A stretch of DNA of 64,000 nt from contig NZ_BAEI01000025.1 of the NCBI RefSeq assembly GCF_000241325.1, positions 62,001 through 126,000 of the forward strand. The letters are read 5' to 3'. The notes below the pieces were generated by a model. That model searched no databases and had not been told where the DNA came from. It saw nothing but the letters and a program-made list of their open reading frames with translations. This document shows positions 1 to 19,357 of this stretch, in pieces; the first letter of the stretch is position 1; the number at the start of each line of letters is the position of its first letter. The stretch is from Gordonia polyisoprenivorans NBRC 16320 = JCM 10675 (GTDB lineage Bacteria > Actinomycetota > Actinomycetes > Mycobacteriales > Mycobacteriaceae). Both the position numbers and the translations under genes were made by a program.

Positions 1-1480
1 TCTGCAGCAACAGCAGTCGCAGCTGCGGAGCCAGCTCGGCTCGGCCATCCAGGTCTATTACGGTGTGGCGTCGACAGCGGGCGCCGACGCGGCGTTGTTC
101 GCCGATCAGCCGCCGTTGCGGTCGCTGCACGAGGGCTTCGTGGCGCAGCCGCCGATCGGCACCACCCTCGGTGAGGCTGTCGACCGACTGATCGCCGATG
201 CATTCACCGCCCTGTATCCCGATCATCCGGATTTCACCCCGGCCGACAAGCTGATCACCCGCAAAGAGTTGTCGATGACGCTGGACCGGTTGCGGGAGGC
301 CCAATCCGATCCCGAAGGTCGACTGGCGTTGGATCGCAGTGATATCCAGACCGTGCGGCGCATCGTCAGCCCGCTGGGGCTGGCCAAGACAAGCGAAACC
401 CACCTGATCTTCTCAGCCGATCAGTTCGCCGGCTGGCGCACACGCATCACTCAGGAGCTGGGTCGCGCCGGTGTGTCGACGGACGAGTCGGGTGCGGCAT
501 CGGACTCCGAGGTACCGGTGGAGGCGGTACGGACCGCGATCGTCACCTCCGGTCCCCGGCGCGGCCTCACCGACGACGTCATCGACCTGATCACCGGCGC
601 GTGGGCAGCGCAGACACGGCGGTCGTGGTTTCTGCACGGATCAGCCGTCGCCGAGCCTGCTCTCGGTGACTTCCGGCGGCGTGGGCTGGCGCTGCGGATC
701 GAGCAACTGCCCGATCGGCAGGTGTGGGTCTCGGCCATTGCTCGCTGGACCACACTCACCGGCCGACGGGTCAACGACTTCCTCACTCCGTCGAATGTCG
801 CGGCATTCGCCGGGGATGTGCGAGCGTACGCCTCCGAGCGAGCAGTGCGTCGTACCCGTCTCGCGCGTGCACTCGAGAAGGCCTACTCCGCGCGGCATCT
901 GGACGGTGGTGCCCGGTTGTCCACGGCAACAGCACTCGACGGGCTCTTCGCGCCGGAGTTGGCCACGCTCAACAACCTCGAGATCGTGGCCCGTGTTGCC
1001 GATGCCGATCTCGGCGGTGCCACCGATGTACAGGCCAGTAGGGCGCTCGGAACAGAAGGTGCCGTTGCCGATGCCGTCGAGGCCTTCACCTTCCGTAGGC
1101 TCGAACCGCTGTTGACATGCGCCGGCACCGAGTCCGAGACGGAGGACGGGCGAGACGCAGCGAGTATCGTCGCAGAACTCGACGACGCACTCGTCAGCCA
1201 CGAGCTCACGATTCCGCTGGTTGCCGCTCTGGCGAGAGTCGGCCAGCGTCGCGACGCGTGGGTCGATCGGCGATTGAGCCAGCGACCCGCGGTCGTCGAC
1301 GATCCGCAGCCCACTCCACCACCACCGCCGCCGGGTCCGCGAGCCTTCCAGATGGAGGTGTCCGATCCGTCAGGCTTCTCGACCGTGGAACGCAAGCTCG
1401 CTGAGCTCTTGGCCGCTCATCCCGGTACCACTTTCACGGTGACCGTCACCGAGTCGACCGGAGCCACTGCGGCGCGATGA
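1..1480 (+). CDS. pglY: BREX type 2 ATPase PglY, C-terminal part (5' end outside window)
   Basis: The reading frame is open from base 2, so the gene begins left of the window; 492 codons are visible and the GTG at 65 is an internal Val codon, not the start. PglY is the large ATPase of type 2 BREX (Pgl), equivalent to BrxC in type 1. The ATPase core is not visible; what remains is the alpha-helical C-terminal part, which begins with a Gln-rich helix. A proline run near the end (about 1315-1340) is followed by a small C-terminal domain. Its TGA overlaps the ATG of pglZ (ATGA at 1477-1480), so the two are translationally coupled. The assignment rests mainly on the neighbours pglZ, brxD and brxHI; the fragment alone has no diagnostic motif. 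Confidence 0.8.
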   Translation, partial: LQQQQSQLRSQLGSAIQVYYGVASTAGADAALFADQPPLRSLHEGFVAQPPIGTTLGEAVDRLIADAFTALYPDHPDFTPADKLITRKELSMTLDRLREAQSDPEGRLALDRSDIQTVRRIVSPLGLAKTSETHLIFSADQFAGWRTRITQELGRAGVSTDESGAASDSEVPVEAVRTAIVTSGPRRGLTDDVIDLITGAWAAQTRRSWFLHGSAVAEPALGDFRRRGLALRIEQLPDRQVWVSAIARWTTLTGRRVNDFLTPSNVAAFAGDVRAYASERAVRRTRLARALEKAYSARHLDGGARLSTATALDGLFAPELATLNNLEIVARVADADLGGATDVQASRALGTEGAVADAVEAFTFRRLEPLLTCAGTESETEDGRDAASIVAELDDALVSHELTIPLVAALARVGQRRDAWVDRRLSQRPAVVDDPQPTPPPPPPGPRAFQMEVSDPSGFSTVERKLAELLAAHPGTTFTVTVTESTGATAAR

Positions 1481-4314
1481 CCACTGCAACGGGTTTGCCG
1501 GAGGCTGATCTCGCGTCGATCAAGGGCGTGATCGGTGAACTTTCGGGCAAGAACTACCGCCCCGGCGTGGTTGCGGTGGCGGCAGTCCCGCACTGGGCGG
1601 GTCCCGCGGAACTCGCCCATGCCGGGACGCGAGTACTGATCACCACCGCTTCCAGTGTGCTCGCCATCCGTGACGTGCTGCGACGGCGTACCGAGACCGA
1701 TTGGCTGGTGATTCTCACCGACCGGCCGTCCACGGAGATTCCCGCGGGAATCGCCGAGCACCTGGTGACCGGCCGACTCCGCAACCTCGATCCGTTCCCC
1801 TTGTTGCGCAACGTTTTTGCTGCATCCAAGCAAGAGTTCGGTCTCTTGGGCGACCAGACAGAGATCGCTCGGGCGATGCTCCGGGAGATCGGCGAAAAGC
1901 CCACCCCGGCGCCCGGCGGGGTGCTGACCGACGACCACGTCTTCACCGAGCTCGGCCAGCGGAAGTTCGACCTCGCCCGTGCCAACATGACCCCCCATCA
2001 CGTGGCCCGGTGGTCGATGGATCCGGTGGCGACGCAGCGCTACACGGCGTGGGCGGAGCATGCGCATCCGGCGCTCGTCGAGCGGTACCTCCTTTGGCTC
2101 ACCCGGCAGCTCGGCGAGCTGGGGCCGATGTTGATGTCGGCATGGCGGCGCCAAGGACCGGCATCGATCGTGCCGCTCGGTCTGATCGCCGGCGTGGTCG
2201 CCGGCACACCGCAGCCCGATGAGGATGCGGCCGAATCGATCCCGCGTATTCGCACTCGGCTGGAGATGAAGGTGGACGACGTCGTCCTGTCCGAATCGCA
2301 GCTCGCCGCGTGGGGCGCGGTGGCGACCCTGGCGGTGGCCGGCGCCCACGATCCCGGACCGGCGCTCACCGCGGCCGAAGCGTTGGTCACCGAACTCCAC
2401 GCCGAGCCGCTGGTGGCTCGCTCCGATGTTCTGCCGTCGGCGCTCGTGGTGCGTATCGCAGCGTTCGCAAGCCGGTTGGCCATTGCGACACAGCACGCCG
2501 TAGGGGGTGACACCGCTGCGGATGTGAACCCGGTGGATCTCACCCCGGTCGACAATGCGTGGGCCGCCGTGCGCGCACACCGCGATCACGATGCAGCCAC
2601 CGCCCCCCGAGACGTTCCGGTGGGGGCTGCGGCGTTGCGCTTGATCCGCCGATTGGTCGAACCGTGGCAACACCCCGCGACACTGTCGGAATGGCTGACT
2701 CGGTACCGCACCGATTGGTCGTGGGTCGACAGTGCGGTCAATCGTGCCCACATCGGTGCCGACAACCCGCGACTCGCACACGCCGTTCACCAACTCCTCG
2801 GAGCAGTCCGCACGCGACGCGCGCAGATGGATCGCGAGTTCGCGACACGTCTGGCAGCCGCCGGCGTGCACCGCGAATCCGGTTCGGGTGCACCGCTCTA
2901 CGCCGAGGACATCCTCGACGCCGTGGTTCTGCCACTCACGGCACGCGATCATGGCGCCACCGGCGCCGGACTCGGCGGCAGCGAACCGTCCCGCTCGCCG
3001 GTGCTCCTCATCGTCGCCGACGGTATGGACGTCGCGTCCGCCAACGACGTCGTGACCGATGCCACCCGGCACCGGCGTCCGCAATGGCAGGACTGCATCC
3101 GCGCCGACGACGACGGCCCGCTCACTGCGCTGTCGGTGCTCCCGAGCGTCACCAGGTTCTCGCGGTGCTCGTTGTTGACCGGCGCCCTTGCAGCCGGAAG
3201 TCAAGATCGCGAACGGTCGGGCTTCGCGGACTGGTTGCAGCAGCGAGGATTACGCGGCCAGGGGCAAGTGCTGTTCCACAAGGCCGACCTCGACGCGGTA
3301 TCGAAGGGACACTCGTTGGCGCTCGACGTTCGCCAAGCCGTACAGGACACCGCCAGCCGCACAGTGGTTGCGTGTGTTCTCAACGACATCGACGACGCGC
3401 TGGATCGGTCCGATCCGATCGGGTCCTCGTGGACGGTTTCGTCGTTCAAACACCTCGACGCGCTGTTGACCGAGGCGGCCGCCGTCGGCCGGACGGTGGT
3501 GCTCGTCAGCGACCACGGCCATGTGGTGGAGCGTCGTGAGCAGCCCAGTGTGCAACGCGGAGATCAGATCTCGGCACGTTACCGCGGGGCGTCGGGAACA
3601 CCTGCAGCAGATGGCGAGATGCTCGTCGACGGAGAACGCGTACTCACCGACGATCATCGCGCCGTCCTCGCCGTCGATGAGCAACTTCGCTACACCGGGC
3701 TCAAGGCCGGATATCACGGCGGGGCAGCCCTCTCGGAGGTGAGTATCCCGGTCTCGATTCTGGTCAACGGTGCCATTCGCTCGTCACTGCCGCTGGTTCC
3801 CTCGGGTTTCGCTCCCCCGTCATGGTGGGATCTCGATGATGCCGCGCCGACTCCGCTGCCCGCGCCGGTCACGCCGTCACCAGCTCCTGCGCCGGCGAAG
3901 CGACCGGCCAAGAACGCGAAGCCTGCTCCGACCTCGGGACAGGAATCACTCTTCGACGTCGGTGAAACCCCTGCGGGCTCAACGGCGGATGATGCGGTCG
4001 CCGACGCGGCATTCGATCCGATCGGTCGACTTCTCACCAGCGGACTGTTCCTCAGTCAGTTCAAGCAGTTCGGTCGTACGCTCACGCACCAGTCGGTGGG
4101 GTCGCTGCTCCGGGAATCTCAGGCGGCCAACGGCGTGCTGCCGATGAGCAGGGTGGCCGAGATCCTCGGACTGCGTCCGGCACAGGCCCGTGGGGCGGTC
4201 GCGCACCTGAGCCAGGTGTTCAACATCGACGGTGTGTCGGTGATCGCGCAACACGGTGACGACGTGACGATTTCTTCGGCATTACTGTTCGAGCAGTTCG
4301 GGGTGAGCCCATGA
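1477..4314 (+). CDS. pglZ: BREX system alkaline-phosphatase-like protein PglZ
   Basis: 945 aa. PglZ is the hallmark protein of BREX systems and belongs to the alkaline phosphatase superfamily. Metal-site motifs are visible in order: LLIVADGMD near residues 510-516, the Ser/Thr nucleophile region SRCSLLTGALAAG near 560-573, and the metal-binding VSDHGH near 677-682. A Pro/Ala/Lys-rich linker (about 785-820) joins the catalytic part to a C-terminal segment (about 850-940) that reads like a winged-helix DNA-binding domain. The ATG overlaps the pglY stop and its own TGA overlaps the brxD ATG, so all three are coupled. In the Pgl system PglZ is needed for phage growth limitation together with the methyltransferase PglX. 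The exact biochemical role of the phosphatase fold is not settled. Confidence 0.93.
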   Translation: MTTATGLPEADLASIKGVIGELSGKNYRPGVVAVAAVPHWAGPAELAHAGTRVLITTASSVLAIRDVLRRRTETDWLVILTDRPSTEIPAGIAEHLVTGRLRNLDPFPLLRNVFAASKQEFGLLGDQTEIARAMLREIGEKPTPAPGGVLTDDHVFTELGQRKFDLARANMTPHHVARWSMDPVATQRYTAWAEHAHPALVERYLLWLTRQLGELGPMLMSAWRRQGPASIVPLGLIAGVVAGTPQPDEDAAESIPRIRTRLEMKVDDVVLSESQLAAWGAVATLAVAGAHDPGPALTAAEALVTELHAEPLVARSDVLPSALVVRIAAFASRLAIATQHAVGGDTAADVNPVDLTPVDNAWAAVRAHRDHDAATAPRDVPVGAAALRLIRRLVEPWQHPATLSEWLTRYRTDWSWVDSAVNRAHIGADNPRLAHAVHQLLGAVRTRRAQMDREFATRLAAAGVHRESGSGAPLYAEDILDAVVLPLTARDHGATGAGLGGSEPSRSPVLLIVADGMDVASANDVVTDATRHRRPQWQDCIRADDDGPLTALSVLPSVTRFSRCSLLTGALAAGSQDRERSGFADWLQQRGLRGQGQVLFHKADLDAVSKGHSLALDVRQAVQDTASRTVVACVLNDIDDALDRSDPIGSSWTVSSFKHLDALLTEAAAVGRTVVLVSDHGHVVERREQPSVQRGDQISARYRGASGTPAADGEMLVDGERVLTDDHRAVLAVDEQLRYTGLKAGYHGGAALSEVSIPVSILVNGAIRSSLPLVPSGFAPPSWWDLDDAAPTPLPAPVTPSPAPAPAKRPAKNAKPAPTSGQESLFDVGETPAGSTADDAVADAAFDPIGRLLTSGLFLSQFKQFGRTLTHQSVGSLLRESQAANGVLPMSRVAEILGLRPAQARGAVAHLSQVFNIDGVSVIAQHGDDVTISSALLFEQFGVSP

Positions 4315-5636
4315 GTGGGTCGTCTCCGAACGGGCCGGCTCCGACCGGTCTGTCACCCGTGCGGCGCCGTGAGATCTTGACCGCGTTGCGCCAGGGCAGT
4401 GTGCCATCGGGCAACCTCGACGTACTGGCCGTCGGTATCGATTCCTTTGCTCCGACGATCGATGACGAGATCGCGGCAGTGGCGGCCGGCGGGTCGGTCT
4501 TCAAGGCAGTGCGCGGCGAATACGGCTCGGGTAAGACCTTTTTCGCCCGATGGGTGGAGCAGCGGGCGATACGACAGGGCCTCGCTGTCGCCGAGGTACA
4601 GGTCAGCGAGTTGGAGACACCGCTGCACAAGCTGGAGACGGTGTATCGGCGGACCACGGAATCGCTTCGGACATCGGCCTTCGCGCCATCGGCATTCCGG
4701 TCCGTCATCGATGCGTGGCTGTTCGAGATCGAGAATGACGCCGCTGCCTTGGTAGCCGGCGATGTACCGACCGCGGACGAAGTCGGCGCGCTGCTCGAAC
4801 AGCGACTCGCGGCGGTGGCCACTGCAGCACCGGTATACCCCATGGTGTTACGTGCATACCGCAGCGCGGTGGAGTCGGGTGACGCGGTCACCGCCGATGC
4901 GTTGATCGCCTGGCTCGGCGGCCAGCCCCACGTGGCCGCCACAGCAAAACGCGCCGCCGGAGTCCGCCAAGACGTCGACCACTTCTTGGCGATGGGCTTC
5001 TTGCAGGGTCTGCTCGCGGTACTCAAGGGCGCCAGGCATCCTGGGCTGGTCCTGGTGATCGATGAGGTAGAGACCATCCAGCGCATGCGCTCCGACAGCC
5101 GGGCAAAGGCGCTGAATGCGTTGCGACAGTGGATCGACGAGCTCGACTCCGGGCGCTACCCCGGCCTGTACTTGCTGATCACCGGCACTCCGGCGTTCTT
5201 CGACGGCCGGATGGGTGTGCAGTCCCTGCCGCCGCTCGCACAGCGTCTGGCGACCGATTTCACCACCGACCCGCGCTTCGACAATCCGCGCGCACCACAG
5301 ATCCGGTTGCGCAACTTCGATATTGACCGGCTCGTCGAGGTCGGTACCCGGGTCCGTGAGGTGTACGCCGACGGCGCCGGAGACCCGACGCGCATCCGGG
5401 CCGTGGTCGATGATGCCTACATCGGGGATCTCGCACGAGCGCTGGCAGGAAAGTTGGGCGGGCAGGTGGGGGTGGCGCCGCGACTTTTCGTCAAGAAGCT
5501 CGTCGTCGACGTCCTCGACCGGGTGGACCTACACGCCGACTTCGATCCTCGGCGCGACTACGCGCTGACGGTCTCGGGCAGCGAACTCACCGATACCGAA
5601 CGCGCCGCGGCATCGCCCGACGACATCGAGTTGTAG
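4311..5636 (+). CDS. brxD: BREX ATP-binding protein BrxD
   Basis: 441 aa AAA-type ATPase. Walker A is GEYGSGKT at residues 69-76 and Walker B is LVLVIDEVE near residue 250, followed by a sensor-like LLITGTPAFF segment. BrxD is the small ATPase that, with the helicase BrxHI, is attached to type 2 BREX loci next to pglW, pglX, pglY and pglZ. The start overlaps the pglZ stop by 4 bp and the stop lies 3 bp before brxHI. The C-terminal part (about 300-400) looks like the lid and winged-helix region of an ORC/Cdc6-type ATPase. Together with pglZ and brxHI it types this locus as BREX type 2. Confidence 0.9.
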   Translation: MSGSSPNGPAPTGLSPVRRREILTALRQGSVPSGNLDVLAVGIDSFAPTIDDEIAAVAAGGSVFKAVRGEYGSGKTFFARWVEQRAIRQGLAVAEVQVSELETPLHKLETVYRRTTESLRTSAFAPSAFRSVIDAWLFEIENDAAALVAGDVPTADEVGALLEQRLAAVATAAPVYPMVLRAYRSAVESGDAVTADALIAWLGGQPHVAATAKRAAGVRQDVDHFLAMGFLQGLLAVLKGARHPGLVLVIDEVETIQRMRSDSRAKALNALRQWIDELDSGRYPGLYLLITGTPAFFDGRMGVQSLPPLAQRLATDFTTDPRFDNPRAPQIRLRNFDIDRLVEVGTRVREVYADGAGDPTRIRAVVDDAYIGDLARALAGKLGGQVGVAPRLFVKKLVVDVLDRVDLHADFDPRRDYALTVSGSELTDTERAAASPDDIEL

Positions 5637-5639
5637 CCG

Positions 5640-7760
5640 ATGAGCGGATTTGAGTCCCTCGACCCGGCGATCCAGCATCACATCGTCAATACCCTTGGCT
5701 GGCCTGGTCTTCGGCCGCTGCAGGAGGAATCCATTCCCGCCATCGTCGGAGGTGGGGACGCGCTGTTGCTCGCTCCGACGGCCGGCGGCAAGACCGAGGC
5801 AGCGGTGTTCCCGGTACTTACGCGGATGCAGGAGCACCGGTGGGCCGGGACGTCGGTGCTGTATGTGTGCCCGTTGAAGGCGCTGCTGAACAATCTGGGC
5901 CCACGTCTCGCCGATTACGCCGCGTGGGTGGGACGTAGTGCGTCGGTGTGGCACGGTGACGTGTCGCAGGCAGCCCGTCGCGGGATCACCCGGGACCGAC
6001 CCGATATCCTGCTCACCACACCTGAATCCCTCGAATCGATGCTGGTTTCAGAAAGCGTTGATGCACAACAGTTCTTGGGTGACGTCCGAACCGTGATCGT
6101 CGACGAGGTGCACGCCTTCGCCGGAGACGACCGAGGGTGGCACCTCCTCGCGGTGCTTGCCCGGCTGGAGTCTTTGATCAGCGATGCGAGTGGGCCGAAT
6201 GCCCCCCGCCGGCGGCTGCAGCGGATCGGGATGTCGGCTACCGTCGGTAACCCTGACGAACTGCTGCGATGGCTCCGCGGAGGGGCGGCAGACGGTGGGC
6301 GAGTGGTGGCACCGGAGGCGTCGGCCGCGGTGGGTGCTGAGATCACCGTCGATGCCGTCGGCAGCGCCGAGAACGCTGCCACGGTCATCGCGGGACTACA
6401 TCGTGGCGAGAAACGGCTCGTGTTTGTCGATTCACGTCGGTTGGCCGAGGAACTCGGGACGGCACTGCGAAGCCGCGGCATCACCACGTTCATCTCGCAT
6501 TCGTCATTATCGGCGCAGCAGCGCCGCGAATCCGAAGCGGCCTTTGCCGAGGCCCGCGATTGCGTCATCGTCGCGACGTCAACGCTGGAACTCGGGATCG
6601 ACGTCGGTGATCTCGACCGGGTCATCCAGATCAACTCACCGCGGACGGTCTCATCGTTCCTACAGCGACTCGGCCGGACCGGTCGACGACCCGGCACCAC
6701 CCGCAACTGTCTGTTCTTGGCCCTCGACGATGCTTCACTCGCGCAGACGCTGGGAATGCTGCACTGCTGGGCGACCGGCTGGGTGGAGCCCGTGGTGGCC
6801 ACTCCCGAGCCTCGCCACATCGCTGCTCAGCAGATCCTCGCGGCGGCCTTGCAGACCCGACGGCTTCCGCTCGTCGGGTGGCAGCATCAGTGGGCCGATC
6901 TACCGCTGTTCGGTGAGGACGGCGACGAGATCTTCGACCACCTGCTCAGCACGGGGTTCCTCGACCACGATGCCGGCAGCGCCTTCATCGGACTGGAAGC
7001 CGAAAGACACTTCGGGCGGCGTCATTTCCTGGAGCTCCTCGCGGTGTTCACCGCGGCTCCCGAGTTCCGGGTCTTCGAGGGCCGCAACGAGATCGGGATG
7101 GTGGAGGTCGGGGTTCTGACCCAGCGGACGGAGGGCCCTCGTGTACTGCTGTTGGGTGGTCGATCGTGGAAGGTGACCCATATCGACTGGAAGCGACGGC
7201 AGGTGTACGTGGAGGGCACCGATATCCACGGCACTGCACGCTGGCAATCGATACCGGACGGATTGTCGTTCGAGATCACTCGCGGCGTGCGCAGCGTGCT
7301 GCTGGGAGAGACACCCTCGGGAGTGACGTTGTCACGCCGTGCCGTCGAGGCGCTCGATGGTTACCGTGCGCAGCGCTCGGCGCACGTTCACCCGGCCAAC
7401 CTGGTCATTGAGCGAGATGTGCGCGGCGACTGGCGGTGGTGGACGTGGGCCGGAACCAAAGCCAACCGCACTCTCGCCGCCTGGACTCGAGAGCTGGTGC
7501 CCGGGCGTCAGAGGATCAGCGGAGAGTCGATCCGGTTGCACTCGGACCTGCGAGTCGACGACATCGCGCGCGTATTGGCTTCGGTGCGGGGCAGCTCGCA
7601 CCGTCCTCTGCCGGATGTCGATCGCGCCGCGATCAGCGGGCTGAAGTTCTCGGCGGCGCTCCCGGAAGGCCTGGCGCGCCGGACTCTCGCTGCACGGGTG
7701 GTCGACGTCAAAGGCGCGGAATCGGTTCTGACGAGACGTGTGTCATTCGCGAAATGCTGA
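5640..7760 (+). CDS. brxHI: BREX DEAD/DEAH-box helicase BrxHI (Lhr-like)
   Basis: 706 aa superfamily 2 helicase. Motif I is APTAGGKT (45-52), motif II is DEVH (about 155-158), motif III is SAT in GMSATVGN (about 198), and motif VI is QRLGRTGRRPGT (about 341-352). The HELICc domain carries TSTLELGIDVGD. The C-terminal 300 residues resemble the extension of Lhr-type helicases. In type 2 BREX this gene closes the operon after brxD, as here (3-bp gap). It presumably moves along or unwinds DNA for the defence complex; its exact activity in BREX is unknown. No gene of the same operon follows: the next gene has its own promoter. Confidence 0.9.
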   Translation: MSGFESLDPAIQHHIVNTLGWPGLRPLQEESIPAIVGGGDALLLAPTAGGKTEAAVFPVLTRMQEHRWAGTSVLYVCPLKALLNNLGPRLADYAAWVGRSASVWHGDVSQAARRGITRDRPDILLTTPESLESMLVSESVDAQQFLGDVRTVIVDEVHAFAGDDRGWHLLAVLARLESLISDASGPNAPRRRLQRIGMSATVGNPDELLRWLRGGAADGGRVVAPEASAAVGAEITVDAVGSAENAATVIAGLHRGEKRLVFVDSRRLAEELGTALRSRGITTFISHSSLSAQQRRESEAAFAEARDCVIVATSTLELGIDVGDLDRVIQINSPRTVSSFLQRLGRTGRRPGTTRNCLFLALDDASLAQTLGMLHCWATGWVEPVVATPEPRHIAAQQILAAALQTRRLPLVGWQHQWADLPLFGEDGDEIFDHLLSTGFLDHDAGSAFIGLEAERHFGRRHFLELLAVFTAAPEFRVFEGRNEIGMVEVGVLTQRTEGPRVLLLGGRSWKVTHIDWKRRQVYVEGTDIHGTARWQSIPDGLSFEITRGVRSVLLGETPSGVTLSRRAVEALDGYRAQRSAHVHPANLVIERDVRGDWRWWTWAGTKANRTLAAWTRELVPGRQRISGESIRLHSDLRVDDIARVLASVRGSSHRPLPDVDRAAISGLKFSAALPEGLARRTLAARVVDVKGAESVLTRRVSFAKC

Positions 7761-7793
7761 CTCAGAGGGAGCCGATCGCATGGCATTGAGTGT

Positions 7794-7810
7794 GTCGATG
7801 TTCCATCGAC
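7794..7810. promoter_or_regulatory. Inverted repeat between brxHI and the GTPase gene
   Basis: GTCGATG-TTC-CATCGAC: perfect 7-bp arms with a 3-nt loop, 34 bp after the brxHI stop and just upstream of the predicted -35 of the next gene. It could be a regulator site for the GTPase promoter or part of a brxHI terminator; no T-run follows, which favours an operator. Confidence 0.5.
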
Positions 7811-7812
7811 GG

Positions 7813-7848
7813 TTCAACTTGTCGGATACGCCCGATACGATCGCGGCG
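7813..7848 (+). promoter_or_regulatory. Predicted leaderless promoter of the GTPase operon
   Basis: TTCAAC (7813-7818), a 17-nt spacer, then TACGAT (7836-7841) place the transcription start about 7 nt downstream, on the GTG start at 7848. There is no Shine-Dalgarno sequence before this GTG. This fits a leaderless mRNA, which is common in actinobacteria, and means the GTPase pair is probably transcribed separately from the BREX genes. Confidence 0.5.
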
Positions 7849-10800
7849 TGACAGAAGCGCGCTCCGACGACACCAAGTCGTCGCTGATAGATGCAGTGGC
7901 AGCAGCCACAGCTGCCGGCGCTGTGGCCCTCGACGAGCTGGAACTCGAGTCGAAGGCACTCATTCGCGACCTCGGCGAGTCGTTGACGGCGCCTGAGTTG
8001 ACAGCTCACTTCGACGCCTATGTGCGCGACTCCCACCTGCTCCTTGATCGACAGCGAGAGCAGCTGTCGACCTTCAACATCGCGTTCTTCGGCAGGACCG
8101 GCGCCGGCAAGAGCACGCTCCTGTCTGCGTTCGGGCAGCTCGACGGCAGCGGAGTATCTCCCGGTGTCAGTGACTTCACCACCGACGTCATCCCCGTCGA
8201 CTGGAATGGTTGCCGACTGTGGGACACACCGGGAATCAACGGATGGGGCCGGACCCGCCGACGCGCAGATCTGGAGGAAGCAGCACGGAAAGCAGTCGAG
8301 TCCGCCGACGTGGTCCTGCTCTGCTTCGACACCCAAAGCCAGCAGGCCTCCGAGTTCACGAAAGTTGCCCAGTGGGTGCAAGCCTTCGGGAAGCCTGCCA
8401 TCGCCGTCCTCAACGTACGGAATCGACGCTGGCGGCACTCGGCCAAGGTCAGCCGGATCTCGGAGCGCGAACGTCATTCACGGTCGGTCCGTGAGCATGT
8501 CAACAACATCAGAACCGAGCTTGCGCGTATTGGTCTCGGCGGTGCCCCGGTGGTGGCCATCAACACTCAGCGGGCGCTCTTCGCGCGAGCCGCAACGCCG
8601 TTTCAGGGCCAGTCCGCCAAGGATTTCGACGCGAACCGAAGTGAATTCGGAATCGCCTACCTGCATGACGCATCGAACTTCGAGGTGCTCGAGGATCTTC
8701 TTGCCGCTTCGATCACCAGCGGCGGCACGGAACTGCGACTTACTTCCCTCTACGCAGGCATGCGCGCACTCCGGGAGAGACTTGCGAACCAGATCATCAA
8801 CGAACGCAACGAGAGTGCGACGGCGATCGGACTCGGTGAGCGCGGTCTCGCCACGTTACTCAGGGTGCTCGGATATCCCGACGGCCCCGACCGCAACGCG
8901 CTACTCGGTGACAGCGAGCCCGCGTTCTCTCAACTCGAACAGATTCGCGGCGAATTCACCGAAGCTTCCGAGGGGAGCCTGGCGCGTCACAGCCGTGGCA
9001 TCATCACCGCTGCGTTGGGAGCAGTTCGCGCCGATTCGCATCGGCGGGCTGAGAAAGTGACCGAGAAGATCCTGAACGGCGCAAAACTCTCATCCCAGCA
9101 GGTTCGGGACGCGATCTTCGACGCAGCTCGCATCGACGCCGCAGAGGAACTGGCGTGGAAATCGTATGAAACCTTTCTGCAAAGACAGCTGGATTTGGTA
9201 CCCGGCGATCACACAAAGGCCGGTGCCGAACAGCAACCGACTGTCAGCACCCAAGCTGTCGGCCGCTTTTCATACCGGGCGACCCGGGTTGTCCAGGCCG
9301 CGGCAAAGGGAGCGGGGGCGGCTGGTGCGGTGCTCGGATTCACCCCGGCGGGTTGGGGAATCCTGGCAGTCGGTGCTGCGGGAGACTTCGCTGGAGGCAA
9401 ACTCCTGCTCCATGCGCAAGGCCAACAGGCACTGACTCGCGCTGCCGCTTTCCGCGACGCTCGCGACACCGTCAATGGATATTTCGATGAGCTCGACACC
9501 CGTCTTCGCGAAGCGGTCCTCAGACATAGCTGGGCAACCGCTGGCCCAGTCCTGCGCCAGCATGTGGAACAGACACTCCGCCACCAGCGGGTTCACTCGC
9601 AGAGTCTCACCGCAGAAAGCCTCGTGAAGGGGATTGCGCCCGCTCGAAGCAGTGGTCCAACCGCCGACGATGTGCTCGCGCGAGCCACGTCGGCGGTCGA
9701 GAATGCGAGGACATTCAGCCGTGACGCGGAGGTATGGCTCGGCGAAGACTGGCTACTGACGGGGCAGCCGCGCAACCATATCGATCCGTCGACCTCTCTC
9801 GCAGTCAGCCAGTTCGACTACGGCACTGGCAAATCTGTCGGATTCCTCGAAGAAGCTTGGGCGCCTGTAGATCAGACCGCAGTAGATCTTTGGCTCAAAC
9901 GTTGCGCACAGTTCGTACACGGCAGTGGAGACGATTCGGCTATCGCAAGTCCGAGAGTTGTCATTCTCGGTGACTACAGTGCGGGAAAGTCGACGCTGAT
10001 CCGTCGTCTTCTCTTCGAAGCCGGTGAGCACATCGACCAAGAAATCGAGATCCGCGCGTCTGCGACAACGTCTGGCGCACGTGAATATCAGGTGGGCCGA
10101 TATCGGCTCATCGACACGCCGGGCCTGCAGTCCGGGTCGAGCGCACATGATCTGACTGCGCGAGAGTCGCTCAGCGGAGCCTCTCTGGTTGTCGTCGTCC
10201 TGCAAGTGAACCTGCTCATCGGCGATGCGGAACTGATCCGCACTCTGATCGACGGCGGACACAATTCGCCGAGCAGGCGAAGTCGAACGCTCTTCGTGAT
10301 CAATCGCGCAGACGAGCTCGGAGTCGATCCAGTCGCTGCGCCCTCGGACTTCGTGAACCTCCGGGAACAGAAAGCAGCCGAACTCATTTCCACCCTTGCC
10401 TCACAAGGCGTGGAAATCGACAGGGGTCAGATTCACATCGTCGCGGCTGATCCGTATGGAATCGTGGGTGGGGATCGCACCGCGACGCGCGAGAGCTTCA
10501 GTGCGCATCGTGAGTGGGATGGCGTGCAGGCCTTGATCGATATGTTCACTCACGCGACCGACGCGGAGGTGTTGACCGGGACTCTTCTCGGACAAGCAGA
10601 TGCGACCATGTCGTCACTACTTGCGTATCGCGACCTACTGACCGCAGACAGCGACGCGTTGAGCGACGAGAACACTCGTCGAACTGACGACCTGTCGGCA
10701 GTGGCCAACGGGTTGGGCGACCTCCGGGTGCTCCTGGACGAGGTTCGCGAGAATCTACGCAGGGCCATAAACGAAGGTGCGGACGTCGCGCGGCAAGATA

Positions 10801-11516
10801 TTGAGAATCTCGGCACCATTGATCGTGCCGCACTGGCGAAGGCTGTCAACAGTTGGCATGAAGACCCAAGCTTTGACCAGCGCATCGACGACGTGACATC
10901 AAGAGCGGCAGATGATCTGGCAGTCTGGGCCGACACCCAGACTTCTGTTATCGGCAGAAGATCAGCACTTGCACAATGGTCCGCCGGGGTTCAGACGGCT
11001 GTCGCCGCACCCTCCGCGCAGTCCGCCGCGTTTGCGAACGCACCAAAGGTAGTTGGTGATGCCGGCAAGTACGCCGCGAACGCGGCAAAGCTCCTCGGTC
11101 AGCGCAAATACCTCTATCCTGCCGCGAAAAAGCTGGGTGTTAATTTCAAGCCGTGGGGTGCGGTCAAGGCGAGCAAACGCTTCGCCAAAGCTGGTCCCAT
11201 CCTCATGGCGGTAGGCGCGGTTGCCGACGGTGTGGCCATGTACCAAGATCATTCGGCGCACAAAGCCTGGGCGAAGGAAAAGTCTGAGGCGCGGCGGCTC
11301 ATCGATCGGCAAGCACAAGAAATCGAGGACTCGATGATCACCGGGAGTAGCGGGCTCATCGACTCGGTCGCCCCAGTTGCCGAGCTGCTCTGCGAACTGC
11401 GCGAGCGTCTCGATGTCCTCACCGAGGCCACGGGCGTGCAAATCGACACCATGCGCTACCGACTGGATTCTGTTTCAGAAAGCATCGCAGCCGCACCTTA
11501 CGTCCGCCACGAGTGA
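7848..11516 (+). CDS. Dynamin-like protein with two GTPase domains
   Basis: 1222 aa with two complete P-loop GTPase domains. Domain 1 has G1 GRTGAGKST (82-90), threonines suited to G2 near 111, and G3 DTPG (126-129). Domain 2 has G1 GDYSAGKST (about 707-715), G3 DTPG (about 754) and a G4-like NRAD (about 814). Between them lies a helical region with a Gly/Ala-rich hydrophobic stretch (about 481-525), and a second hydrophobic stretch lies near 1110-1130; both could enter a membrane. This tandem layout is that of bacterial dynamin-like proteins, which tubulate or fuse membranes. I cannot name an exact family. A second GTPase gene follows 9 bp downstream. Codon use looks less GC-rich than in the genes from 13176 onward, as expected for an acquired island. 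Confidence 0.8.
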   Translation: MTEARSDDTKSSLIDAVAAATAAGAVALDELELESKALIRDLGESLTAPELTAHFDAYVRDSHLLLDRQREQLSTFNIAFFGRTGAGKSTLLSAFGQLDGSGVSPGVSDFTTDVIPVDWNGCRLWDTPGINGWGRTRRRADLEEAARKAVESADVVLLCFDTQSQQASEFTKVAQWVQAFGKPAIAVLNVRNRRWRHSAKVSRISERERHSRSVREHVNNIRTELARIGLGGAPVVAINTQRALFARAATPFQGQSAKDFDANRSEFGIAYLHDASNFEVLEDLLAASITSGGTELRLTSLYAGMRALRERLANQIINERNESATAIGLGERGLATLLRVLGYPDGPDRNALLGDSEPAFSQLEQIRGEFTEASEGSLARHSRGIITAALGAVRADSHRRAEKVTEKILNGAKLSSQQVRDAIFDAARIDAAEELAWKSYETFLQRQLDLVPGDHTKAGAEQQPTVSTQAVGRFSYRATRVVQAAAKGAGAAGAVLGFTPAGWGILAVGAAGDFAGGKLLLHAQGQQALTRAAAFRDARDTVNGYFDELDTRLREAVLRHSWATAGPVLRQHVEQTLRHQRVHSQSLTAESLVKGIAPARSSGPTADDVLARATSAVENARTFSRDAEVWLGEDWLLTGQPRNHIDPSTSLAVSQFDYGTGKSVGFLEEAWAPVDQTAVDLWLKRCAQFVHGSGDDSAIASPRVVILGDYSAGKSTLIRRLLFEAGEHIDQEIEIRASATTSGAREYQVGRYRLIDTPGLQSGSSAHDLTARESLSGASLVVVVLQVNLLIGDAELIRTLIDGGHNSPSRRSRTLFVINRADELGVDPVAAPSDFVNLREQKAAELISTLASQGVEIDRGQIHIVAADPYGIVGGDRTATRESFSAHREWDGVQALIDMFTHATDAEVLTGTLLGQADATMSSLLAYRDLLTADSDALSDENTRRTDDLSAVANGLGDLRVLLDEVRENLRRAINEGADVARQDIENLGTIDRAALAKAVNSWHEDPSFDQRIDDVTSRAADDLAVWADTQTSVIGRRSALAQWSAGVQTAVAAPSAQSAAFANAPKVVGDAGKYAANAAKLLGQRKYLYPAAKKLGVNFKPWGAVKASKRFAKAGPILMAVGAVADGVAMYQDHSAHKAWAKEKSEARRLIDRQAQEIEDSMITGSSGLIDSVAPVAELLCELRERLDVLTEATGVQIDTMRYRLDSVSESIAAAPYVRHE

Positions 11517-11525
11517 AAGCCGACA

Positions 11526-13103
11526 ATGACCACCATCAACAGTGCTGAGCAATGGGTTCTTTCGTCATCAGACGCCGAGAGCGTGGCCAAGTGTCGCGAG
11601 GGTCTTGCCGAGTTCACGAGACAGTCCAAGCCCATCGTCACTGTCCTCGGGTCATACGACACGGGCAAGAGTAGTCTCATTCGACGGATTCTCGTCGATA
11701 GTGGCGTCAGCGTTCCCGAGTGGTTGACCATTAGTGCGCGCCACGAAACGTTTGCGGTCAATCAGATTGACTGCGGGGGCTACATTGTGCGGGACACACC
11801 CGGTCTGGCCATCGGTGCAGATGATGCCCGCGCCACCTCCAACACGTCTGATGCGTTCGATGCGGTCACCACTACGGATATCGCAGTCATCACGGTCTCT
11901 CCTCAATTGGCGACGGGCGAACGCGACGCCCTCCTCGATCTCATCAGTGTGGGATGGGCACCGGGGACGCTGTGGTTCGTGATCGGCAGATTCGACGAAG
12001 CTGGAGTGCCTTTCGACTCGGATCCCGACGGGTACCGCGGTGCCGCGGAACGCAAGACCCGCGAGCTTCGGGATTCCCTGAAACTGGATCCTGGTGTTCC
12101 GGTGTTCGTCGTGTCCCAGGACTTTGAGCAGATCGGTGGACCTGATCGAGATCTCGATTCAGACACCTGGGAGGAGTCCAGGGAGTGGGACGGTATGGCT
12201 TCCCTGGAGGACGCTCTGACGTCAATAACACAGGACCGACGTGATTTCTTGAGAGACGCTGCGGTCAAACGGTTCTGGGCAATCGCTGCCAAGCAGGTGG
12301 CCCAGGGTCTCGCAGGTGAGCGCCAAGATCTCAAGACACTGGAAGGCGTAGCGGACCGGGCCGCAAAGCAATTGGAACTCTGGGACGATCAACTCAACAC
12401 GCTCAGCAGAGCAGCGGCGAGTGCGCTCGACAGCGAGATCGATCAGGAGTCTGCGCGCCTGACGAAGCTCCAATCAGATCTGGCATCCGTCACCACGGCT
12501 CTCACTCAGGTCCTGGACCGGTGGCACGCGAAACAGACCCAGAGCCTCGATCTGTTGCTGCAGGATGTCGACTTCGCCCAGACAACCGAGAAGGCCAGCC
12601 CCGATTGGCAAGATCTGTCCGACATTCTGCAACAAGCAACGGTCGGCGCCACCGCTGCGGCGCAGGGTCCTGACCCGATCTTCTCCAAGGTCACCGGACG
12701 ACTGGGACCGGTGATTGTCGGTGCTCTGACCGATTACGCGAAGCTGAGCCGCCAGAAGACCTTGAAGGCGCGCGGTTCCGCTTTGCCCGCGGACACAGAG
12801 TGGTCCGCTCCCAAGTACGCTGCCGCCGCAGCGGCTGGACTACCGCTGTTGCAGGAAGTAGCCGGCTTCGTCGATGACGAGCGTGCGAAGGCGGCCGCGA
12901 AAGCGCAGTATGCGGCTCAGCTCTCGCAATATGCACAGCTCACCAAACAGAAGGCTGATGAGCAGTGGGCCATCACAATCGACCACGCACGCAACAGAGT
13001 GCAGGAGGCTTTCGGAGAACAGGCCGGCACCTTACCGGTCATCACCGACCGCATCGCCCAGATCGACAGTGCGCTGCAGCAGATCGGAGAGTGGGGCCGG
13101 TAG
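11526..13103 (+). CDS. Dynamin-like GTPase, partner of the double-GTPase protein
   Basis: 525 aa. One N-terminal GTPase domain: G1 GSYDTGKSS (42-50), G3 DTPGL (about 90-94), and GRFDE (about 152) where N/TKxD would be expected, so the base-specificity motif is degenerate. Residues about 255-345 form long heptad-like helices typical of a dynamin stalk. A short Ala-rich hydrophobic patch (AAAAAGLPLLQEVAGF, about 435-450) could touch lipid, and the end is again helical. It starts 9 bp after the larger GTPase gene and surely shares its mRNA. Bacterial dynamin-like proteins often work as pairs of unequal paralogues, which fits this arrangement. It is the last gene of the defence island; backbone genes follow on the opposite strand. 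Confidence 0.75.
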   Translation: MTTINSAEQWVLSSSDAESVAKCREGLAEFTRQSKPIVTVLGSYDTGKSSLIRRILVDSGVSVPEWLTISARHETFAVNQIDCGGYIVRDTPGLAIGADDARATSNTSDAFDAVTTTDIAVITVSPQLATGERDALLDLISVGWAPGTLWFVIGRFDEAGVPFDSDPDGYRGAAERKTRELRDSLKLDPGVPVFVVSQDFEQIGGPDRDLDSDTWEESREWDGMASLEDALTSITQDRRDFLRDAAVKRFWAIAAKQVAQGLAGERQDLKTLEGVADRAAKQLELWDDQLNTLSRAAASALDSEIDQESARLTKLQSDLASVTTALTQVLDRWHAKQTQSLDLLLQDVDFAQTTEKASPDWQDLSDILQQATVGATAAAQGPDPIFSKVTGRLGPVIVGALTDYAKLSRQKTLKARGSALPADTEWSAPKYAAAAAAGLPLLQEVAGFVDDERAKAAAKAQYAAQLSQYAQLTKQKADEQWAITIDHARNRVQEAFGEQAGTLPVITDRIAQIDSALQQIGEWGR

Positions 13104-13175
13104 GCCGGGGCGATCAGCGACCAGACGTCGACGTCCGCCCTCGCCCAAAGCCCCGGCGCTAGAGCGGATTCGGCG

Positions 13176-13739
13176 CTATGCACCACCGGCGTCGAGCCGG
13201 CTCGTCACACGTTCGCGTACGGCGCGAAAGTACGGTGCGCGGTGCGGGTGGGCGCGATGATGCGGCGAGTCCGGGCCGTGCCGGTCCAGCATGTCGCGCA
13301 TCCGGTCCTCGACGTCCATCACGGCGTGGCCGGTCGGGCTGGAGGTCTGGTCGGCCAGCGTCAGCGCGTCGGTCACCTCGTCCTCGACGAAGGTGAAGTC
13401 GCTCAGTGCTTCGTCGATGCCGCGTTCGGCCGCGATGTAGCGCGCGCCGGAATGGTGGGCGACGAGAGCGCACACCTCTTCGGGCCAGCCCCGCGCGCGG
13501 AGATACCGTGCGCCGTCGACGGGATGAAAGCCGGTGTCGCGCAGTGCGGGAACGTAGCCGATGTCGTGGAGCCAGGCGGCGGCGATCAACGCATCGCGCC
13601 GTCGCGGATCAACGGTTTGGGCATACCGGGTGGCCTGCGCGGCCACGCGGGTCACGTGGCGGAGCCGGTTCGGATCAGAGGCCAGGAGTCGTGCTGCGAG
13701 TTCTCGCGCCGCGTCCGTGAGCGCGTTCTCGTCGTCCAC
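13176..13739 (-). CDS. HD-domain metal-dependent phosphohydrolase-like protein
   Basis: 187 aa. The HD-domain pattern is present: H28 in LRHVTRVA, the HD pair in AAWLHDIGY (about 57-58), a second His pair in VAHHSG (about 89-90) and a distal Asp in LTLADQTS (about 128). These residues bind the divalent metals of HD phosphohydrolases; the substrate is unknown. The GTG start at 13739 is chosen because GGAGGAGAGG lies directly upstream. It is divergent from the amine oxidase gene at 13821 and marks the first gene right of the defence island. Confidence 0.75.
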   Translation of the reverse strand: MDDENALTDAARELAARLLASDPNRLRHVTRVAAQATRYAQTVDPRRRDALIAAAWLHDIGYVPALRDTGFHPVDGARYLRARGWPEEVCALVAHHSGARYIAAERGIDEALSDFTFVEDEVTDALTLADQTSSPTGHAVMDVEDRMRDMLDRHGPDSPHHRAHPHRAPYFRAVRERVTSRLDAGGA

Positions 13740-13820
13740 AACCTCTCCTCCGCGTCCCCCGACGGCCCGGCACGTGTGATTGTGCCACGACGCCCCACAC
13801 CGGACGATAACGTCTGTCAG

Positions 13821-15161
13821 ATGTCACGACCGTCGCCACACACCGTCGTCGTCGGAGCCGGCGTCGCCGGGTTGACCACCGCCAGGTTGTTGCACAGGTA
13901 CGGCCACAGCGTCGTCGTGCTGGAGGCCCGCGACCGGATCGGTGGCCGCACCCACACCGACCGCTCCGACGGATATGTCACCGATCGGGGTGCCTCGTGG
14001 ATTCACGGCATCGACGACGCCCCGTTGTTCGACGCCGCCCGCGCGTTCGGTATGCGGACCGTCGAGTTCACCGTGGGCAGTTATCAGCCACTGAGTCGGC
14101 CGACCGCCTACTACGGCCCCGACGGTTCCCGGCTGAGCGACGCACAGATCGCCGCGTTCGTCGAGGACATACAGACCGTCGACGCGCTGCTGTCGGACGC
14201 CATCGGCTCGGCCGGTCCGGGGCGCTCCTACTGCGACGCCGTGGAGGACACCTTGGCCGGGCTCGACTGGACGCCCGGCCGCGCCGAGCGGGTGCGGGAG
14301 TTCTTGGCGCACCGCACCGAGGAGCAGTACGGCGTGGAGAGTGGCGAGCTCGATGCCCACGGTCTCGACGACGACGAGACCCTCGGCGACGAGGTGGTCT
14401 TTCCCGACGGCTACGACCGACTGGCGTCGGCGCTGGCGCAGGGGCTCGACGTGCGGTTGGGCCACATCGTGACGCGGGTCCGGTGGTCGGCGGAGGGTGT
14501 CGTCGTGGCATCCGATGCCGGGGAGTTCGCCGCCGATCACGTCGTGTTGACCGTGCCGGTGGGGGTGCTGAAGTCGGGTGATCTGACCGTCGATCCACCG
14601 CTGCCCGAACCACTCGCCGGTGCGCTCGACCGGCTGGAGATGAACGATTTCGAGAAGATCTTCCTACGCTTCGAGCACCGATTCTGGGATGACGGTGTGT
14701 ACGCGGTCCGGCGGCAGGGGCCGGCCGGTCGCTGGTGGCATTCGTTCTACGACCTGTCCGCATTGCACGGCACGCCCACGCTGCTGACCTTTGCCGCCGC
14801 CGACTGCGCCCGCGCGATCTGCGGCTGGTCGGACCGTCGGATCGCCGATTCGGTGCTCGACGCACTGCGCGAGATCTACGGCGATGCCGTGAGCACACCG
14901 ATCCGTGTCGACGTCACCCGGTGGCGCGACGACCCGTTCGCGCGGGGATCGTATGCGTATATGACCGTCGGCTCGACGACCGCCGACCACGACGTGCTCG
15001 CCACCCCGGTCGGCGACGGCGTGCTCCACATCGCCGGTGAGGCCACGTGGACCGACGACCCGGCGACGGTGACCGCAGCGCTGATGTCGGGGCATCGGGC
15101 GGTGGGCAACATCCTCGGCCATCCGGTGCCGCTCGAGGAGTTGTGGCAGAAGGGCACGTGA
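13821..15161 (+). CDS. Flavin-dependent amine oxidase
   Basis: 446 aa FAD enzyme of the amine oxidase family. The N-terminus carries the dinucleotide motif VVVGAGVAGLTTARLL and the acidic strand end VVLEARDRIGGRTHT; the flavin-contact motif RGASWIHG follows near residue 55. The C-terminus has GSYAYMTVG and HIAGEAT, where FAD is closed in. Such enzymes oxidise primary amines or polyamines to aldehydes with release of peroxide; the specific substrate cannot be read from the sequence. The ATG at 13821 is chosen because it puts the Rossmann motif about 6 residues from the start; the open frame upstream of it is antisense to the HD gene. Confidence 0.85.
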   Translation: MSRPSPHTVVVGAGVAGLTTARLLHRYGHSVVVLEARDRIGGRTHTDRSDGYVTDRGASWIHGIDDAPLFDAARAFGMRTVEFTVGSYQPLSRPTAYYGPDGSRLSDAQIAAFVEDIQTVDALLSDAIGSAGPGRSYCDAVEDTLAGLDWTPGRAERVREFLAHRTEEQYGVESGELDAHGLDDDETLGDEVVFPDGYDRLASALAQGLDVRLGHIVTRVRWSAEGVVVASDAGEFAADHVVLTVPVGVLKSGDLTVDPPLPEPLAGALDRLEMNDFEKIFLRFEHRFWDDGVYAVRRQGPAGRWWHSFYDLSALHGTPTLLTFAAADCARAICGWSDRRIADSVLDALREIYGDAVSTPIRVDVTRWRDDPFARGSYAYMTVGSTTADHDVLATPVGDGVLHIAGEATWTDDPATVTAALMSGHRAVGNILGHPVPLEELWQKGT

Positions 15162-15239
15162 CCTCCTGGCCGAATCACCCAGCAAGGTCGCGTGAATCTA
15201 CTCATGGCGCCACCGGGACCGGTTGCGATCGTTGTCGGC

Positions 15240-15533
15240 ATGGCAACCTCAGAGATTCCCCAGAACCCCACCACCGCAGCGTTCTTCCTCCAGGCAGCGA
15301 TCGCCTTCGGCGTCAGCCTCGCGACCGCCGTCGTCGGCGTCTTCTATCTGCCGATCGACGCCTGGCAGCGCGGTTTTCTCGCAATCACCTTGCTGTTCCT
15401 CACATCCAGTACGTTCACCCTCGCCAAGGTGGTGCGCGACCGGCAGGAGCAGACGTCGGTGCGGGCACGACTCGACGAGGCGAGGGTGGACAAGTTGATC
15501 GCCGAACACGATCCCTTCAGCAAGGTTTCATGA
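15240..15533 (+). CDS. YiaA/YiaB-type two-helix membrane protein
   Basis: 97 aa if it starts at 15240; an in-frame ATG at 15192 would add 16 residues. Two transmembrane helices (about 13-35 and 42-62) are joined by a short turn, which is the yiaA/B two-helix domain seen in small inner-membrane proteins of unknown role. The C-terminal tail is charged (RDRQEQTSVRARLDEARVDK) and likely cytoplasmic. Neither start has a strong ribosome-binding site. Confidence 0.7.
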   Translation: MATSEIPQNPTTAAFFLQAAIAFGVSLATAVVGVFYLPIDAWQRGFLAITLLFLTSSTFTLAKVVRDRQEQTSVRARLDEARVDKLIAEHDPFSKVS

Positions 15534-15565
15534 TTCGGGTCTCGGAGTTCGGGGCGCGGGCTCGG

Positions 15566-15721
15566 TCAGAAGTAGTGGGCGCGTCCGCCCACCGCACGGC
15601 CGGTGGCACCGAGGATCGCGAGGATCAGACCGATCACCACCAGGATGATGCCGATGGTCCATAGGATCGGGATACCGAAGATGAGTCCGAGGATCAGACA
15701 GATGGCGCCGAGGATGATCAT
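15566..15721 (-). CDS. Small hydrophobic membrane protein (DUF6131-like)
   Basis: 51 aa, almost entirely hydrophobic: two membrane helices rich in Ile, Leu and Gly, ending in a short GRAVGGRAHYF tail. The ATG at 15721 is preceded by GAGAGG at proper spacing. Proteins of this size and composition (DUF6131-like) are common in actinobacteria and have no known function. It is convergent with the YiaA/B gene (32 bp apart). Confidence 0.65.
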   Translation of the reverse strand: MIILGAICLILGLIFGIPILWTIGIILVVIGLILAILGATGRAVGGRAHYF

Positions 15722-15821
15722 GAGAAGCCTCTCGAGATGACGCGGATGAGGACTGCTCGGCGCTGCTGCAAGCACCTTCCACCCTAGACCTCCCGCACCC
15801 CGACGTATACGGAGTCAGCAG

Positions 15822-16634: not shown

Positions 16635-16684
16635 CAGTGCGTTTCACGCGGAGGTGACAGTGCGTTTCGCGCGGATGTGACAGT
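16616..16684. repeat. Three-copy 23-bp tandem repeat across the stop of the DUF1206 gene
   Basis: Units at 16616-16638, 16639-16661 and 16662-16684. Each unit reads GCGTTTC(G/A)CGCGGA(T/G) followed by GTGACAGT. Units 1 and 3 are identical and unit 2 differs at two bases. Unit 1 encodes the end of the protein with the TGA; the extra copies lie between this gene and the convergent LysR gene. Confidence 0.9.
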
Positions 16685-16693
16685 GCGGCTTGA

Positions 16694-17551: not shown

Positions 17552-17591
17552 GACCAAAGCGTATACCTACGTCAATATATGCACTGGTCAT

Positions 17592-17622
17592 CGGTATCGG
17601 CCACTCATACCGTCAAGGTATG
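17592..17622. promoter_or_regulatory. Candidate LysR operator between regulator and exporter
   Basis: Two overlapping inverted repeats: CGGTAT-N9-ATACCG (17592-17612) and CATACC-GTCAA-GGTATG (17606-17622). They share the ATACC half-site and the second runs up to the exporter start codon. This is a plausible binding and repression site for the divergent LysR protein. Confidence 0.5.
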
Positions 17623-17625
17623 CAC

Positions 17626-19320: not shown

Positions 19321-19330
19321 CTACCATTAG

Positions 19331-19348
19331 CAGAACTGAACAATTCTG
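19331..19348. promoter_or_regulatory. Candidate LysR operator (right pair)
   Basis: CAGAA-CTGAACAA-TTCTG: 5-bp inverted arms with an 8-nt spacer in the 37-bp gap between the divergent exporter and LysR genes. It immediately precedes the ribosome-binding site of the LysR gene. Confidence 0.4.
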
Positions 19349-19357
19349 GAGGTGGTG

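Follow-up and report, generated by a model that had tools for sequence, protein, structure and literature searches.

A LeoBC/LeoA-like dynamin gene pair with a putative PafBC-type promoter beside type 2 BREX in Gordonia polyisoprenivorans

The 64,000-nucleotide stretch of Gordonia polyisoprenivorans DNA analysed here (C89:62001-126000, from a genome of 6.28 Mb; hereafter the window) holds a type 2 BREX operon that is followed, after a gap of 87 bp, by the genes for two dynamin-like GTPases, DLP1 and DLP2. What would membrane GTPases contribute next to a system directed at DNA, and do they belong to it? We find that the two proteins match the LeoBC/LeoA dynamins, that their genes lie near type 2 BREX (BREX-2) more often than expected by chance and near other defence systems as well, and that a sequence preceding DLP1 fits a DNA-damage promoter. 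The reading we favour, to which we give an even chance, is that DLP1-DLP2 is a LeoBC/LeoA-type membrane GTPase pair and an optional defence module that has repeatedly been joined to DNA-directed systems, and that it would be induced by single-stranded DNA (ssDNA) through PafBC and limit lysis as a second layer. Genomes and loci are given by our own handles (G and L numbers).

Family and architecture of the pair

The DLP1 gene (7848..11516, plus strand) starts with GTG and encodes 1222 amino acids, and the DLP2 gene (11526..13103, plus strand; 525 amino acids) follows after 9 bp. The initial annotation had described a protein with two GTPase domains and a smaller partner 87 bp behind brxHI (which ends at position 7760), and both open reading frames (ORFs) and their P-loops bear this out: DLP1 has two GTPase domains, with P-loops at residues 82 and 708 and DTPG motifs at 126 and 756, DLP2 has one, and the hallmarks of dynamin-superfamily GTPases (P-loop, DxxG) are present in the pair. 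The Pfam models MMR_HSR1 and Dynamin_N match DLP1 above their cut-offs, while the Pfam DLP_helical model, at 24.9 bits, falls just short of its cut-off (25.5). All three dynamin units match the PADLOC models for LeoBC/LeoA dynamins strongly. Residues 13-569 of DLP1 match LeoBC (PDLC03841; 3.5e-129, 430.7 bits), and residues 700-1192 match LeoA (5e-83), as does DLP2 (1.4e-87), with similar scores of 278 and 293 bits for the second half of DLP1 and for DLP2, respectively. A profile of seven DLP1 proteins (A1) matches the LeoA crystal structure 4AUR over positions 727-1256 (E 1.4e-12), while profile A2, built from seven DLP2 proteins, gave no match to a dynamin in the Protein Data Bank. Because of the PADLOC matches and the match to 4AUR, we place the pair among the dynamins of the Eleos type, as one fusion and one additional LeoA. 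We read it, from its sequence, as a fused variant of the LeoBC/LeoA dynamins with three GTPase domains rather than as a new family or an outsider, and the suggestion that the pair is of an undescribed kind has to be given up in view of these matches.

The pair departs from the known arrangement in its fusion. The PADLOC profiles span 601 (LeoBC) and 559 (LeoA) positions and are taken as two single-dynamin proteins, whereas here a LeoBC-like half (about residues 13-569) is fused to a LeoA-like half (about 700-1192), with an extra LeoA behind. Eleos, which is composed of LeoA and LeoBC, is reported to protect against phages (Millman and colleagues, 2022). It has been called a Dynamins-like system, and the two labels often occur as couples (PMC11811056). 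LeoC and LeoB are split and lie 5' of LeoA, while DynA is fused (PMC4159319). Like DLP1, Bacillus subtilis DynA holds two dynamins in one chain (PMC4159319), and it delays lysis (PMC8844932); the abstract of the latter paper names no partner protein or BREX for DynA, and the DLP sequences match the Leo models instead. In two genomes, DLP1 lies in two reading frames (L098 in G735, L105 in G910), which could be a frameshift, a sequencing error or a natural split like that of LeoC and LeoB.

The architecture is retained among relatives. All 25 DLP1 proteins in our tree, one of them from a Nostoc plasmid, have 1222-1390 amino acids, and a pattern search detects the first P-loop in every one of them and the second in 24. 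Outside the GTPase domains, hydrophobic stretches (DLP1 489-512 and 1112-1131, DLP2 431-450; Kyte-Doolittle 1.3-1.4) look paddle-like rather than like clear transmembrane helices; a hydrophobic segment follows the first GTPase domain in all 25 DLP1 proteins, and a second is found at a comparable place in 17. The most hydrophobic stretches of all, DLP1 773-801 and DLP2 134-155, are parts of GTPase domains and thus uninformative on membranes. The genome encodes another dynamin pair (L006; 517 and 638 amino acids) that is distinct from DLP1-DLP2, since the first protein has no PADLOC match and the second reaches 55 bits against LeoBC.

Linkage to BREX-2 and to other defence systems

To ask whether the pair belongs with BREX-2, we used three overlapping samples, of 298 genomes of the order, 394 of the class and 401 of the family. 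Relatives of DLP2 were found in 8, 7 and 20 genomes, respectively, and all 20 family genomes with a DLP2 match have a second match, the DLP1 neighbour, just 5' on the same strand. The BREX-2 PglZ model was matched above its cut-off in 36 of the order and 41 of the family genomes. The pair and BREX-2 occur in one genome four times in the order sample (P = 0.009) and seven times in the family sample, compared with about two expected (Fisher P = 0.002; 0.007 minus the window's genome). In six of these seven, PglZ lies 3.5-13 kb from the nearer pair gene; in the seventh (G910), PglZ and the pair are on different contigs. Thus, the attachment to BREX-2 that the initial annotation had proposed, along with a co-occurrence check in other actinobacteria, stands as linkage above chance, but not as a BREX-specific one, since only 6 of the 20 family carriers have the pair near BREX-2.

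Three layouts are seen at the linked loci. In the window, the pair shares its strand with brxHI and lies 3' of it; in three genomes (G191, G142, G203), it points away from pglW, the longest ORFs of the two being about 100-360 bp apart; and in two (G679, G732), it is tail to tail with the BREX operon, with other genes between. If the pair were an integral BREX effector, BREX proteins such as the PglW kinase or the PglY ATPase would sense phage DNA and directly activate the dynamins to cause abortive membrane damage. This would fit the presence of the pair at six BREX-2 loci, at three of which it is divergent from pglW. However, the pair is missing from 34 of the 41 PglZ-positive family genomes and sits on a different contig in one more, which leaves the 6 linked cases, and it also occurs with other systems. 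We therefore regard an integral effector as unlikely, and the pair is not part of the type 2 BREX core.

The BREX operon 5' of DLP1 is a complete type 2 (Pgl) set, to which the adjoining pair is accessory. The genes for PglW, PglX, PglY, PglZ, BrxD and BrxHI run in this order and in one direction, followed by DLP1-DLP2, with PADLOC matches to PglW (1388 amino acids, 7.6e-286), PglX (1198 amino acids, E 0) and BrxC/PglY (1281 amino acids, E 0). Within the window, all on the plus strand, lie the 3' part of pglY (1..1480; identified by PADLOC among others, its start lies 5' of the window), pglZ (1477..4314; NCBIfam BREX_PglZ_2, 1.9e-202), brxD (4311..5636; NCBIfam BREX_BrxD, 3.5e-186) and brxHI (5640..7760; PADLOC BrxHI, 1.5e-299). 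On the other side, the next large ORF 3' of the pair has a flavin amine oxidase domain, and no tRNA genes were found within the window.

What lies near the copies that are away from BREX? With PADLOC, we searched 52 proteins encoded near the pair at 19 non-BREX loci, as well as two BREX-linked neighbours, and considered matches with E <1e-30 as strong; G910 (pair and PglZ on different contigs), L024, G401 and G479 were left out. Strong matches are found near the pair at 11 of the 19 loci, weaker ones only at four (G451, G139, G868, G735), and none among the scanned neighbours at four (G752, L025, G826, G105). The families are diverse: near the pair lie DISARM DrmA/DrmB (G736, G774), a pPIWI-RE set (G163), PbeA-like and PDC-S37 genes (G980), type I restriction (G759, and at about 10.5 kb in G250), a GajB-like UvrD helicase (in G960 and in the closely related G976), HEC-05 (G665), an Orf5-like protein (G833) and an MkoC-like protein (Nostoc). 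Because these 11 loci carry other defence families, we consider the pair an optional module and not a part of BREX. The homologues thus do not lie mostly outside defence islands or beside unrelated genes in the loci scanned, which were the outcomes that the initial annotation had named as telling against it.

For comparison, the two largest ORFs in each of 13 random regions of these genomes were taken as 26 controls, and 20 of them, covering 11 regions, were scanned; 4 of the 20 proteins match at 1e-8, and the two strong matches are both in one region. Strong matches therefore occur at 11 of 19 loci and in a single one of the 11 control regions (P = 0.010), in a comparison that is unmatched, with 1-7 proteins per case locus and 1-2 per control region. 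Similar results are obtained without the related G960 and G976, whose helicase match is generic (9 of 17, P = 0.022), and were obtained with the smaller case set before three loci were added (10 of 16 against the 11 control regions, P = 0.007). In L095 (G980), seven same-strand genes at 2258-19899 with no large gaps comprise the pair and PbeA-like, PDC-S37/Mokosh-like and weakly ZacB-/ZacC-like genes, perhaps a composite defence operon. In L093 and L094 (G960, G976), two large genes follow the pair (936/965 and 1109/1107 amino acids), of which the second encodes the GajB-like UvrD helicase and the first has no PADLOC match.

Alternatively, the pair could be an Eleos/dynamin defence system complete in itself, found near BREX and other systems only because defence genes cluster in islands, with no functional link. 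Its partners and layouts are indeed varied, it has its own promoter, and in each of the 11 comparisons available (of 13 control regions) the guanine-plus-cytosine (GC) content of the pair region is below that of a control region from the genome concerned. In addition, a BREX-2 set with 72-91% protein identity to that of the window occurs without the pair in G887, a genome of the same genus. Tight same-strand spacing argues against a mere passenger: besides the 87 bp to brxHI, there are 46 bp to drmB (G736), 51 bp to PprPDDEXK (G163) and a contiguous strand in G980, and in three genomes the pair starts divergently beside pglW. We consider a passenger quite possible, if short of an even chance.

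G887 shows what such a locus looks like without the pair. As in the window's genome, where it encodes 446 amino acids, the same gene (60% identical) precedes pglW on the opposite strand, and the DNA similarity to the window stops at window position 7690, just inside brxHI. Right after brxHI, G887 has the same type of promoter element as that described below (L125:6346-6372), and no dynamin gene follows it. Either G887 lost the pair and kept the promoter, or the pair joined a pre-existing promoter.

The pair is rare, and its distribution is sporadic. A tree of 25 DLP1 proteins, which leaves out G735 and G910 (split frame) and the distant G401 and G479, has at least four changes between BREX and non-BREX settings, although long branches, that of the window included, make the number of separate BREX joins uncertain. 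The closest kin of the BREX-linked DLP1 of G191 is the copy of G759, beside a type I restriction gene. Among the pair genomes outside the family sample, BREX-2 lies about 366 kb from the pair in G451 and on other contigs in G479, and is absent from G163, G139, G105 and G401. Pair matches occur in 7 of 59 genomes of the genus and 2 of 16 of genus g5, all of them known loci; one profile search of genome contigs gave two Streptomyces loci, and a plasmid collection, at the E limits used, gave one Nostoc plasmid only. In viral contigs, the A1 and A2 searches gave 115 and 31 pattern stretches and no tblastn relatives, and there is thus no sign in these two scans that phages carry the pair.

A DNA-damage-type promoter in front of DLP1

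What would switch the pair on? The element TTGTCGG-N10-TACGAT (7819..7841, plus strand) is an exact match to TTGTCRG-N10-TANNNT, taken here as the RecA-NDp consensus. Its -10 box ends 6 nt 5' of the GTG, which supports the leaderless promoter that the initial annotation had assigned to the pair and makes it more precise; counted from the start codon (+1), the first box occupies -29 to -23. A scan for sigma-70 consensus promoters and intrinsic terminators found none. RecA-NDp has been named as the PafBC motif (PMC6789036), and PafBC, with its '-26 motif', is activated by ssDNA (PMC11804915). The element before DLP1 thus fits a RecA-NDp/PafBC DNA-damage promoter; its motif, spacing and position are like those of the PafBC regulon, and recA and uvrA of the same genome share the motif.

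Similar elements precede other members of the family. If one mismatch is allowed in the first box, the motif is found within 150 bp 5' of 11 of 26 DLP1 genes (Nostoc, G401 and G479 left out), four of them exact (window, G752, G759, G732), compared with 0 of 26 on the same strand within the first 250 bp of DLP1. It precedes 11 of 24 DLP1 genes (G833 and G868 are outside this comparison), compared with 9 of the 401 remaining ORFs in the same regions with at least 100 amino acids (P = 1.8e-10), and the spacing is 10 in 11 of 12 DLP1 motif matches when spacings of 8-12 are allowed. All six BREX-linked DLP1 genes have the motif, compared with 5 of 20 others (P = 0.002, with related rows that are not independent). 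Control regions hold no exact and two one-mismatch sites in 520 kb of strand sequence, and the pair regions minus the window hold 8 exact sites in 1.41 Mb. Some of the DLP1 copies that lack the motif may be read from the promoter of their partner. Exact sites also lie antisense in the 3' part of DLP1 in two related genomes (L103 in G679, 4344-; L104 in G732, 4501-), and non-dynamin neighbours bear RecA-NDp-like sites in L034/L035 (G191) and L097 (G759), whose DLP1 proteins are sisters.

In the window's genome as a whole, there are 28 exact sites, compared with 2 for the reversed pattern. Fourteen of the 28 are near-identical sites before one repeated gene family (L133, L135, L141-L144, L147-L149, L151-L155), with LTFTDP.ADAAAI near the protein start; some of its members lie near contig ends, and the one that was scanned has no Pfam match at 1e-5. 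Of ten proteins 3' of sites that were compared with Pfam, seven match (RecA, UvrA, methyladenine glycosylase, DUF222, protein kinase, helicase, PRiA4_ORF3). The 6-nt leaderless layout is also found at the glycosylase, DUF222, kinase and helicase genes, and not at recA and uvrA.

Between brxHI and the promoter lies a perfect inverted repeat, GTCGATG-TTC-CATCGAC (7-3-7; 7794..7810, plus strand), the sole exact copy in the 6.28 Mb genome. We weighed it as an operator or a terminator; no T-run follows it, and it may be an operator, an attenuator or chance.

A promoter of this type would also suit a dynamin with no part in defence, one induced by DNA damage for vesicle release or in envelope stress. 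LeoA acts in vesicle secretion, and deletions of LeoA and LeoB cut vesicle release by about half (PMC4159319). However, the distribution of the pair is sporadic, low in GC and largely flanked by defence genes, and the separate dynamin pair of this genome (at most 55 bits to LeoBC) could do the housekeeping. We consider a role outside defence very improbable.

A possible membrane layer behind DNA-directed defence

Beyond the family, architecture, linkage and promoter motif described above, we infer the following mechanism, including the anti-phage function and the membrane step. Phage attack, together with the action of the partner system (for example BREX-2, DISARM, pPIWI-RE or type I restriction), would expose ssDNA, which would activate PafBC and thereby switch on the leaderless DLP1-DLP2 operon. 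Late in infection, the GTPases would assemble on the membrane and would delay or limit lysis and phage release, by analogy with Bacillus DynA, which protects at the population level through delayed phage lysis (PMC8844932). The pair would thus form a second layer when BREX fails to clear the phage, as the initial annotation had suggested; that part is plausible. In its most specific form, as a mobile three-GTPase dynamin module under PafBC, attached to BREX-2 and other DNA-directed systems, in which ssDNA from failed clearance elicits a membrane response, we hold the proposal tentatively and think it less likely than the broader reading.

Several observations weigh against even the broader reading. 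Defence genes gather in islands, such that linkage alone is no proof of cooperation, and the control comparison is unmatched; the long branches in the DLP1 tree blur the number of BREX joins; and G887, with its close BREX-2, has no DLP2 match in its genome. With respect to the proteins, the NCBIfam LeoA model has no match in DLP2 and scores DLP1 at 74 bits, below its cut-off of 325. The first GTPase domain of the window's DLP1 has NVRN where NKxD is usual (residues 187-195), and a pattern search of the 25 DLP1 rows shows NxRN instead of this base-recognition motif in 21, which may alter nucleotide choice. An AlphaFold model (A3; mean predicted local distance difference test score 37, predicted template modelling score 0.30) is too poor to use and speaks neither for nor against a stalk or paddle. 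With respect to the promoter, the motif is absent within 150 bp 5' of 15 of 26 DLP1 genes, the DISARM and pPIWI-RE copies included. Moreover, only three of the 8 exact sites in the other pair regions lie within that distance of DLP1; one lies 283 bp 5' of DLP1 (G910), two are the antisense sites inside DLP1 (G679, G732) and two are elsewhere.

The LeoBC/LeoA dynamin family itself is already known, and what is new is the PafBC-type promoter before the pair. A BREX partnership and a PafBC-type promoter go unmentioned for the known systems in the portions of the literature at hand. The main text of a 2026 BREX survey (PMC12839542) contains neither 'dynamin' nor 'GTPase', and a survey of actinobacteria, in which Eleos is extremely enriched in Rhodococcus, mentions no BREX link in its accessible part (PMC10482375). 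Among the matches listed in literature searches, 'PafBC' and 'dynamin' do not occur together, and no title or abstract has a dynamin pair with BREX-2 or PafBC, in a scope that mostly excludes subscription papers. A dynamin defence pair in the PafBC regulon is new to us.

The pair bears on what triggers dynamins in phage attack and on whether BREX has downstream layers, and the PafBC-type promoter before a dynamin defence pair offers a concrete and testable trigger, ssDNA. The repeated pairing with unrelated DNA-directed systems marks the DLP pair as a general add-on module. If the more specific proposal is correct, the pair would extend the DNA-damage response to the membrane in the service of immunity, tying nucleic-acid defence to the control of lysis.

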